64,000 nucleotides of DNA from an uncultured Caulobacterales bacterium (GTDB lineage Bacteria > Pseudomonadota > Alphaproteobacteria > Caulobacterales > Maricaulaceae): contig CALFVT010000018.1 in the NCBI GenBank assembly GCA_937928165.1, positions 1 to 64,000 of the forward strand, given 5' to 3'. This document shows positions 4,176 to 59,878 of the stretch, piece by piece (position 1 is the first letter of the stretch; each line of letters begins with the position of its first letter). The notes under the pieces were generated by a model. It was not told where the DNA came from. It searched no databases and was given only the letters and a program-made list of their open reading frames with translations. The translations under genes were made by a program, and so were the position numbers.

Positions 4176-4332
4176 GTTTGTCTCCTGATGATATATTAGG
4201 TGTTATCTGCACGATTTCAAATGGGAATCAAAGCCAAAATTTGGCTTAGTTTTTACGATAGACTCTTACTTGTCGTGCTGGCTTTATTTTATTACGCCTA
4301 ATGGTATTAAACCCTCTGTTTAAATGGCATAA

Positions 4333-4360
4333 GATTCCCGCATTCGCGGGAATGGACGGG
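4333..4360 (+). repeat. Palindromic repeat, copy A (forward)
   Basis: ATTCCCGC, loop ATTC, GCGGGAAT, then GGACGGG. This is an 8-bp perfect stem. It matches the copies at 59021, 59131 and 61379 in stem, loop position and the GGACGGG/AGACGGG tail. Its tail faces copy B, which lies in the opposite orientation 86 bases away. Confidence 0.85.
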
Positions 4361-4446
4361 GTTTTAGGAATACCGAGGTACAGCTTATTAATCTCAAAGA
4401 ACCTCACTTTTCCATCGTTACATAGCCTATAACCCAACCGTTCTCC

Positions 4447-4472
4447 GTGCATTCGCGCGAAGGCGGGAATCT
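4447..4472 (-). repeat. Palindromic repeat, copy B (reverse, degenerate)
   Basis: Read on the minus strand it is GATTCCCGC, CTTC, GCGCGAAT, GCACGG. This is the same repeat as copy A with one stem mismatch. Copies A and B form an inverted pair. Confidence 0.7.
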
Positions 4473-5036
4473 TTTACCGTCTATCCCGTAGGCCGTGGAT
4501 TAAACCTAAGACAACAAAGCTGTTGGATAATTAATTATTCCGGTCTTTTAATCACACACCGCCCCCTAGACGCCAGCGCCAAAACCCCCACCCCTTTCAA
4601 GGTCAGGTACATGGACGATCACGAAGCGGGAAAACCGCAGGTCACCTAAATATCTATATGTTCGCAGCTTTCCGCTTCGCGATGACACAATTTTGCGCAG
4701 TCCAGGACCGGAATGGATCTATCCGCTACAACCAAAGTACGGCGGTACAGCCAGCAGGCATAACTCCGCTGCGTCTACCGCATGTGCCGTCACCCTTAGA
4801 GCAAACCAATGCGCATTTGCCTGTCCCAAAAGGTGATAGGGTTAAGATAGGGCATAACAGAAGGGTGTGGATTTATCTGGGGTGTTTCGTTTGAGGTTTC
4901 CCTGTTATCATAGGCACCAACTTTACATGGGCGCACATTTCGAAAATAACGTCACCAGATTCCCGCCGGAGTTTACCGCTGTGAAAACAGGGGGGAATGG
5001 ACAGCGTGTTTATTTAGGCGTCATACTATCTTACCC

Positions 5037-5063
5037 GTGCATTCTCGCGGAAGCGGGAATCTC
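5037..5063 (-). repeat. Palindromic repeat, copy C (reverse)
   Basis: On the minus strand it reads GATTCCCGC, TTCC, GCGAGAAT, GCACGGG. It has one stem mismatch and shares the GCACGG tail with copy B, so B and C may be a subfamily. Confidence 0.7.
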
Positions 5064-5359
5064 TTGTTGAAAACGGCAGAGTGGCCTAAACTAAATATAA
5101 TAAGCGGCCCGTGTATTTTCAGATACGATAAATAGCTTTAATAAAGCAGAAGACTCCCGCCCCTTGTTTTCACAAGGATGAACTCTGGCTTAAATCTCTG
5201 ATGCTATTTGTATAATCGATGAGGCGCAGGCGGGTTTAAATAGGCTTTATGTCAATGAAGCTTTAATTTGCTCTTTTTGCCTTGCCCCGCATGACGGCTA
5301 TGCAGGAATTTTCGGATAATTCTGCTTGTAATTAAATCATCTGTGCCGATTATGGGTAT

Positions 5360-58728: not shown

Positions 58729-59020
58729 GCAAAGCTTCTCATCGTTATTGTTGGTTTCATGCCGGCAATCCATAACTTGCTCTATTTTCTGAAATGGGTG
58801 ACCGCAACAAGGGGGGTCATGACGGGTTAGGAGCGAGAGGGCCAATGGAAGACAGATGAGGGAGCTGTGGCATGGGGACATTTTACGCTTACTCCAACCC
58901 GCCTACCCCGATAAAAATCGAGGTCTCTTTCGTTTATACGCGTGCCATGATTCAGAACAATGTCATTCCGGGGCGCTTAATATGTGATGAGTGAGTGAAC
59001 CCGAGATCTTGAGTAGTTTA

Positions 59021-59047
59021 GATTCCCGCTTTCGCGGGAATGGACGG
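59021..59047 (+). repeat. Palindromic repeat, copy D (forward)
   Basis: ATTCCCGC, TTTC, GCGGGAAT, GGACGG. An eight-base perfect stem; nearly identical to copy A at 4333. It forms an inverted pair with copy E. Confidence 0.9.
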
Positions 59048-59080
59048 AATTTGATGTCATTTGTTGTTTTAACTATACAT

Positions 59081-59110
59081 CCCGTTCATTCCCGCGCATG
59101 CGGGAATCTA
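59081..59110 (-). repeat. Palindromic repeat, copy E (reverse)
   Basis: On the minus strand: GATTCCCGC, ATGC, GCGGGAAT, GAACGGG. It lies 40 bases after copy D in the opposite orientation. Confidence 0.9.
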
Positions 59111-59130
59111 GGTCTGTGGATTAGATCAAG

Positions 59131-59162
59131 AGATTCCGGCTTTCGCCGGAATAGACGGGGGA
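59131..59162 (+). repeat. Palindromic repeat, copy F (forward)
   Basis: ATTCCGGC, TTTC, GCCGGAAT, AGACGGGG. The stem changes CCC/GGG to CCG/CGG with compensating bases, which suggests selection for the hairpin. Copy G at 61379 has the same stem. Confidence 0.9.
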
Positions 59163-59330
59163 AGTATGGATATACCCTTAAGATATACCTTTGGGTCAGG
59201 CCCAAGGGTGACGACAAAACTCCAAGATAAATCCACGCCCTAAAACCTTATGATAATATACCCTTGTTCTGTCATACGGACGGTGATGTGCACGTTAACT
59301 TCATTATGACGGAATGATTGGTGCAGATAG

Positions 59331-59652
59331 CACATGGAGTGCCCACAATCGATACGGTGTATCGATTGTAACGACAGGCCGAAGCCGCAAGGCTGAGGTT
59401 GGCACAAACGTCCCATGTGTCCTGCCGGACGCCCTGTAATGCGCTTTTAAGTAAGCGTGTAAGGTGAGAGCTGTGATGGTTTAGACCTAACGACTGTCTG
59501 GGGCCTTTGAAAAAACCGATCATGCGGTGCGCGTAACGCCCGCAATCCTTCACCCCAAGAACATATCTGGGACGGATTGCAGTGGAGCGCCGCAGATGTA
59601 AATCTGCGGATAGTTCTTTGGCGTTATGGCGGCGGCCAGCAAAGTGCTTGGC
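59331..59652 (+). ncRNA. Candidate structured RNA
   Basis: Domain 1: CACATGG (59331-59337) with CCATGTG (59413-59419); GTGCC (59339-59343) with GGCAC (59401-59405); an 11-bp hairpin ACAATCGATAC/GTATCGATTGT (59345-59369); AGCC-GCAA-GGCT (59383-59394). Domain 2: TAACGCC (59534-59540) with GGCGTTA (59620-59626), enclosing GCAATCC/GGATTGC (59542-59580) and CCGCAGAT-GTAA-ATCTGCGG (59590-59609). The loop of the first inner hairpin (AGAAC, 59558-59562) can pair with GTTCT (59613-59617), a possible pseudoknot. GCAA and GTAA are GNRA loops only on the plus strand. I recognise no known RNA family. Confidence 0.5.
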
Positions 59653-59878
59653 TGTGTTGACTGTGTAAAATAAAGATATTCGGTAACCATCATGGTCAAC
59701 CGCCGCATATGTCCAAACTGCGCCCACGGGGCGGCGGTGAATTTTCGCGTGGCGGTTCGTTTATTTGCGCTCTGTCTTCATGGGGGTTATGCGGCCAATA
59801 AGCGCAGAGCGGTGGTTTGCTTGCGGGGCTAATCTGAACTAGGGTTGCGGCGATATTATTATCATAGGGAGAGATTAT

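Follow-up and report, generated by a model that had tools for sequence, protein, structure and literature searches.

Phage satellites such as the PICIs and SaPIs redirect packaging with a small terminase (TerS) of their own, and in phi29 an RNA of the DNA-packaging motor, the pRNA, multimerises through its loops. With these systems we compare a structured RNA present twice in a 64,000-nucleotide stretch of DNA (the window) from an uncultured Caulobacterales bacterium of the family Maricaulaceae, a member of an RNA family in which a small ORF, here called the adaptor, stands downstream of some copies. As in the satellites, a small protein encoded by the element carries a TerS-like C-terminus that, to judge from its sequence, would recruit the large terminase (TerL) of a helper, and the distribution is patchy and host-matched. 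Unlike the satellites, the helper here would be a gene transfer agent (GTA) rather than a phage, and no integrase or other satellite genes accompany the element; its core is a structured RNA of 200-500 nt, its protein keeps only the tail of TerS, and its copies, from 10 to at least 34 per genome, are dispersed. A PICI-like integrase, att site or discrete island was absent at the copies examined, where the unit consists of the RNA and an optional small ORF between housekeeping genes. The likeness to phi29 pRNA lies in the proposal that the RNA acts with a packaging motor and multimerises through loops; the two are not homologous, phi29 is not a GTA, and for the present RNA a part in the motor is only proposed.

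GTA small terminases are reported to have no specific DNA-binding domain, hence the random packaging of host DNA (PMC6854486, PMC11841831), and the TerS of RcGTA needs its C-terminal helix to bind TerL (PMC6854486). The adaptor resembles the GTA TerS (g1 of RcGTA and its relatives) in the C-terminal TerL-interaction segment, where the match is best within the same genome. It differs from TerS in having a short basic region, sometimes with CPxCG, instead of the N-terminal and coiled-coil part, and in the position of its gene, which lies behind the RNA element, whereas true TerS genes lie immediately upstream of terL. A limited look at the GTA literature found no mention of selfish elements that exploit GTAs.

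Among other RNAs, OLE, ROOL and GOLLD (PMC12286853) have in common with the present family a large, intricate, conserved fold and a symmetric loop that changes yet stays palindromic; in OLE, the change of L9.3 from GGCC to GAUC or AGCU is regarded as support for a symmetric kissing loop (PMC12286853). The present RNA has no sequence or Rfam match to these families, is shorter, occurs in other hosts and at much higher copy number, and is linked to ORFs with a TerS tail. It is like the mobile/repeat sequence candidates (MRSC) of a 50-genome ncRNA survey (PMC11109978) in occurring in several copies per genome with inconsistent orientation to its neighbours, and unlike it in having a defined fold and a GTA link and no association with a transposase or integrase; Caulobacter and related names are absent from the main text of that survey.

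Results

The initial annotation of the window had proposed a possible new structured RNA at 59331-59652, in a region that no open frame seemed to explain and where no known RNA was visible. The hairpins that it listed are present, examination of the ORFs bore out the lack of a coding explanation, and an Rfam check of the region gave no match. Homologues also exist in which the stems change with compensation, the observation that the annotation had itself named as supporting its proposal. Its limits, however, were wrong. The RNA, referred to as copy 1, is larger than first described and runs on the + strand from near 59266, behind a promoter, through a GUCC ending at 59714 to the end of a terminator-like hairpin at 59745. 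This full extent, from the likely 5' end to the terminator-like end, was judged from homologues, using an alignment of 16 sister copies, a covariance-model match of 128.4 bits and covariation.

Direct reading of the sequence places the promoter-like element at 59231-59259 (+), with ATCCAC at 59231-59236, a 17-nt spacer and TAATAT at 59254-59259, and the arrangement ATCCAC-N17-TATNNT also stands 5' of every sister copy in the same genome and of copies in G007, a genome of another genus. In the own-genome and G007 copies the -35 element, ATCCAC(G), has exact 17-nt spacing and an A-rich stretch upstream, and is unlike any standard alphaproteobacterial -35; in part of these copies it reads TTATCCACG, which is close to a DnaA box. 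The terminator-like hairpin, also read directly from the sequence, occupies 59718-59745 (+) together with the TTTT that follows it, and a variable hairpin with a T-run after GTCC recurs in most sister copies of the genome. REP-like palindromes (ATTCCCGC..GCGGGAAT), often in pairs, lie at 59020-59160, 4330-4480 and 5035-5062 of the window; they are frequent across the genome and flank most RNA copies.

The alignment of the 16 sister copies describes a single RNA family, in which conserved blocks are combined with peripheral stems that can be exchanged. Its architecture consists of P1 enclosing P2 (loop GUAACG) and P3 (with P3a, P3b with a GNRA loop, and P3c), a 3' domain, and a closing pairing of GGAC with GUCC; minimal copies lack P3a and P3b. 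In copy 1, where all features are on the + strand, the 5' hairpin P1a (59271-59310) pairs 59271-59276 with 59305-59310 and bears the apical palindrome GTGCAC at 59288-59293; by inspection of the copy alignment, its stem has a different sequence between subfamilies with the pairing kept. The initial annotation had suggested a pseudoknot between AGAAC (59558-59562) and GTTCT (59613-59617), but this pairing contains a mismatch in the sister copy L012, and the AGAAC loop is absent from L014. The conserved long-range pairing is instead that of GGAC (59278-59281), as 5' strand, with GTCC (59711-59714), the conserved 3' end of the structured core; it is helix 1 of the cross-genus alignment, with 91.4% of cells paired.

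The core (59316-59521) is formed by P1 (59316-59321 with 59516-59521) around P2 and P3, and the P1 helix shows two-sided changes at 7 of 7 pairs in the 20-copy alignment (A2). In P2 (59323-59425), GCAG (59323-59326) pairs with CTGC (59422-59425), and pair 13/124 of A2 occurs as GC, CG, AU and UA. In copy 1 an insertion enlarges P2, and within it lie the 11-bp hairpin (59346-59368) and the GCAA hairpin (59384-59393) emphasised earlier; both exist, but among the 16 aligned sister copies the insertion is common only to copy 1 and L013, and it lies outside the conserved core. P3 (59426-59509; helices 5-8 of the 20-copy alignment) comprises P3a (59440-59459), P3b (59463-59472), whose loop GAGA (59466-59469) is the conserved GNRA loop and had not been listed before, and P3c (59475-59498), with the conserved loop TAGACC.AA (UAGACC.AA in the RNA). 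A long-range pairing of GATGG with CCATC was rejected, since GATGG is nearly invariant while its supposed partner varies; the P3c hairpin, which covaries, was preferred. The 3' domain (59522-59714), closed by ATGCGG (59522-59527) with CCGCAT (59703-59708), contains a CAAAGTG hairpin (59637-59654) and, within 59658-59698, a large conserved loop, GTAAAA...AAGATATTCGGTAACC. Across 58 distinct cross-genus sequences, 97.7% of cells in the homologous closing helix (helix 4) are paired.

The + strand of the copy 1 region has a folding energy of -143.1 kcal/mol, compared with -117.6 +/- 5.35 kcal/mol for dinucleotide shuffles (z -4.8), and folds better than 100 of 100 of them; the minus strand folds less well (-116.6 kcal/mol, z -3.8). 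RNAalifold on nine diverse copies gave 46 pairs, 26 of them with compensatory changes. When 20 distinct copies were aligned, 96.9% of cells were paired and changes on both sides were seen at 32 of the 46 pairs and in 180 cells, as against 32-43% of cells paired in a control in which one strand was slid by 1-3 columns. The cross-genus alignment (model R3) shows compensatory change at 19 of 30 pairs, and in its 58 distinct sequences 90% of cells pair versus 38-42% when slid. Paired cells include 199 G-U combinations versus 5 A-C, which indicates that the + strand is the RNA strand and that the fold has been selected as RNA. We regard the RNA family to which 59266-59745 belongs as almost certainly real.

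A second copy in the window, missed by the initial annotation, lies on the minus strand at 4579-4872. It is of the minimal form with a terminator-like end, and scores 29.8 bits with R1, the first covariance model, which revealed it, 63.8 bits with R3 (over 4612-4828) and 190.9 bits with R2, a model built partly from this copy itself. Its promoter reads ATCCAC (4872-4867), N17, TATCTT (4849-4844), a 10-nt palindrome AATGCGCATT lies at 4817-4808, and the 3' GTCC is found near 4614, all on the minus strand. In the genome as a whole, a search with the copy 1 region found 18 places, mostly partial and with recurrent break points, and models R1 and R2 identified 20 full-type and 8 minimal copies, in partly overlapping lists that amount to at least 25 loci.

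R1 had no matches in 98 genomes of the same family and 298 of the order, and the closest named relative of the window, a Caulobacterales metagenome bin, was without an R1 match. Weak R2 matches in five relatives became the basis of R3; the own-type models R1 and R2 missed most homologues, which R3 alone revealed. Of 99 same-family genomes, representing 19 genera, R3 identified 23, from 6 genera, as carriers of the RNA, with up to at least 34 copies per genome; the counts are lower limits, since only 34 candidates were scored, and the covariance-model E-values are rough after a shortened calibration. In genus g8 the RNA is present in six genomes and absent from three.

Rfam 15 gave no match for the copy 1 region, its sister copies or the homologues, even at relaxed E-values. 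RNase P, tmRNA, 6S, SRP and HEARO were rejected as identities for lack of an Rfam match, introns likewise gave no Rfam match, and matches to plant microRNAs were spurious products of the REP palindromes. Exact-pattern scans of genome and viral contig collections with motifs from the own genome found nothing. Other pattern matches in viral contigs were chance ones in which the forced loop alone matched, and phage and plasmid collections gave no match at either the DNA or the protein level. By these comparisons the RNA family is new, uncatalogued and without an Rfam entry. Relatives such as L150, L161, L162 and L104 have a conserved 3' extension after GUCC, made up of a hairpin C(U)GYC..CGAUGGGC(A/U)G and then.AGC..AUGACGC; in many relatives this segment separates the RNA core from the ORF, and it may belong to the RNA or serve to control the ORF.

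The apical loop of the 5' hairpin occurs as many different palindromes: GUGCAC, CGUACG, CGCGCG, AAUGCGCAUU, AACUAGUU, GACGUC, ACGCGU, CGAUCG, GUCGAC and UGAUCA. A palindrome of at least 6 nt was found in 18 of 26 distinct apical loops, whereas among 5000 shuffles the number of such loops averaged 4.7 and never exceeded 12; the loop windows of this test were set by eye, and the loops come from related sequences. That the loop is palindromic in so many sequence versions suggests RNA dimers, with the apical loop as the putative contact.

Unrelated housekeeping genes flank the RNA copies, which point either way and frequently lie at a contig end. Several pairs of near-identical copies are 90-100% alike in the RNA and unrelated in the DNA outside it, and in some of them the shared sequence starts near the likely transcription start and stops at GUCC. 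The G007 copy L156 has an RNA body like that of three others (97-99%) and a promoter that keeps the motif alone; this recent body behind an old, diverged promoter points to replacement of an older copy via gene conversion. At the typA locus the RNA occurs in one of nine congeners, where the upstream gene differs too, so that there is no clean empty site, and at hslU the RNA lies upstream, in orthologous position, in at least two genomes (G036 and G121). As patterns of sequence, typA and hslU support gain and loss of RNA copies, a transposition mechanism not being proven.

Upstream of typA, an RNA copy is present in two genera (L062 in the own genome, L161 in G036) and absent in eight congeners of G036. 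L062 also has an unusual structure at 4500-5300 (own genome, C5), where a full RNA copy is followed by a duplicated 3' end of ccrM and then by a second RNA 3' domain, in an order permuted relative to the ccrM locus (L064). This arrangement suggests, from its sequence, recombination between RNA copies with flanking DNA carried along.

Behind some RNA copies, in six genera, lies a small ORF starting MPR or MSR. It belongs to no family in Pfam, PHROGs, NCBIfam or PADLOC; one PHROG match, to a 'transposase', was weak (1.3e-4, 33 residues). Paralogues within one genome differ mostly by synonymous changes (for example, 24 versus 4 in 68 codons), an excess that marks the ORF as a selected protein. 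When a profile of five RNA-linked ORFs (A8) was searched against the same 99 genomes, members of the ORF family turned up in 15 of the 23 genomes with the RNA and in 0 of the 76 without it. A8 matches in RNA-negative genomes (G015, G027, G030) were all GTA TerS, and even with TerS matches counted in, the two-by-two association of A8 matches with RNA presence has a p of 1.5e-12. An RNA precedes 21 of 26 such ORFs on the same strand, at a distance of 90-440 nt; of the remaining five, three start within 250 nt of a contig end.

Most RNA copies are without the ORF, and some RNA-bearing genomes (G010, G062 and G108, of genus g11) show no ORF of the adaptor family. Neither window copy carries it. 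The own genome has one ORF-bearing copy, at C2:74378, with its adaptor at C2:74649, and the window copies are tied to the GTA only through the RNA family and this copy. The N-terminus of the adaptor, which replaces the rest of TerS, is short and basic, with CPxCG in several copies. CPxCGR or CxCG occurs near the N-terminus in L241, L244, L245, L232, L221, L148 and L150, from three genera, and may be a zinc knuckle; two ORFs of this type stand in tandem in G017 (C3) and G093 (C179). The ORFs of genus g2 (L110, L117) and some of those of genus g8 (L118, L141, L146, L160, L163) have MPR and an amphipathic N-terminal helix, and C-termini that differ from the TerS tail.

A8 also matched, in many genomes, proteins of a different kind, about 110 residues long and encoded directly upstream of a large terminase. 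In the own genome the GTA core cluster comprises TerS, TerL, portal, protease, capsid, tail tube, DUF2460, Gp84, NlpC/P60 and GTA_TIM/Rcc01698, with TerL matching PF03237 and PF17289 and GTA_TIM matching at 1e-135. Its position upstream of TerL in a complete GTA cluster identifies the 110-residue protein as the GTA small terminase. The adaptor and TerS share Y.DLPPPSPEDR..F..RL..L, which is the C-terminal end of TerS, and an HMM of TerS tails, run over 13,879 ORFs at the loci examined, matched only TerS and the RNA-linked ORF family.

When 12 RNA-linked ORFs were compared with 15 TerS proteins, 8 matched the TerS of their own genome best (label-permutation p 5e-5). The tail in G078 agrees with its own TerS at 94% in protein and 75% in DNA, with 17 synonymous versus 2 nonsynonymous codon changes, and that in G117 at 86% and 71%. 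Likeness in protein and not in DNA looks like an interface held to the host TerL, not a recent gene copy. The RNA family is, in the sequences compared, linked to TerS-tail ORFs in GTA-bearing genomes, and we consider a functional link of the family to the GTA likely.

Discussion

We propose, with a probability of about one half, that the RNA and the adaptor form a satellite-like element that uses GTA packaging. The adaptor would retain a host-matched tail that recruits TerL, and its N-terminus would bind the structured RNA, or DNA at RNA loci; the GTA motor would thus be brought to the element, which would become enriched in GTA particles. Delivery, then homologous recombination, would spread and homogenise the copies. 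Copies lacking the ORF, both window copies included, would be non-autonomous members served in trans, and the RNA would be able to form dimers through its palindromic apical loop. A mobile or selfish element is plausible in view of the many copies, their patchiness within genera, the near-identical copies with unrelated flanks and the TerS-tail ORF. Nevertheless, the near-identical copies are explained by ordinary gene conversion as well, a family of host genes passed on vertically would also account for the common promoter motif and for the RNA 5' of typA in two genera, and typA did not provide a clean empty insertion site. If true, this would be the first element known to us that exploits or directs a GTA, and who packages what into GTAs, and whether GTAs can be parasitised, would become directly testable.

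The RNA and adaptor could instead be genes of the host whose role is to restrain or steer GTA packaging; they might, for instance, occupy TerL to block altruistic lysis, or guide packaging towards selected loci. The host-specific tail match and the purifying selection on the ORF would suit such a regulator, and the promoter motif common across genera and the orthologous positions at hslU look like those of maintained genes. However, 10 to at least 34 copies, patchiness within genera, decayed fragments (such as C20:30386) and clustering at contig ends look like proliferation, and we think it unlikely that the pair serves the host in this way.

A further proposal, which we hold to be doubtful, makes the RNA the specificity part of the GTA packaging complex. 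It would dimerise or oligomerise via its palindromic loop, be held by the adaptor and dock on TerL, so that an RNA-protein small terminase subunit selects the loci or the RNA entering GTAs. Were this so, a domesticated virus would have a satellite based on RNA.

Alternatively, the RNA may be an ordinary new multi-copy regulatory or structural ncRNA family unrelated to GTAs, with the TerS-tail ORFs as passengers. Most copies are indeed without the ORF, promoter and terminator-like signals make every copy a stand-alone RNA gene, and the complex conserved core resembles that of other large bacterial ncRNAs. What makes this reading improbable is the confinement of the ORF family to RNA-bearing genomes, almost always right after the RNA, with the association given above (p 1.5e-12, TerS matches counted in). 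Independent of any GTA link, the present sequences add a large, highly covarying, multi-copy bacterial RNA family absent from Rfam, with evidence for a dimer contact.

The initial annotation had also raised a guide-type RNA of a lost mobile element, and more broadly the RNA might be the remaining part of a retroelement or RNA-guided mobile element (a retron, group I/II intron or HEARO/omega-RNA-like element) whose protein was lost. Dispersed near-identical copies, some pairs of which are bounded by the likely transcription start and GUCC, would be expected of such an element, yet we judge it very unlikely. The 22 loci and the window had no Rfam match to such families, including HEARO (RF02033) and introns; no RT, IscB or TnpB-like gene was found at the copies examined and no HNH/RuvC nuclease ORF at the flanks examined; no variable guide segment was seen; and the old promoter and recent body of L156 fit gene conversion. 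An artefact of chance hairpins or of a DNA-level palindromic repeat (REP/BIME, MITE), which the REP-like ATTCCCGC repeats around the region and the breaking of the assembly at copies might have suggested, is refuted in practice by the covariation, the 199 G-U versus 5 A-C combinations and a + strand that folds far better than the minus strand.

A GTA TerS-TerL pair is also carried by L253 (IMG/VR UViG_3300002059_000053), a contig filed as viral, which is probably not a virus but a piece of a bacterial GTA.
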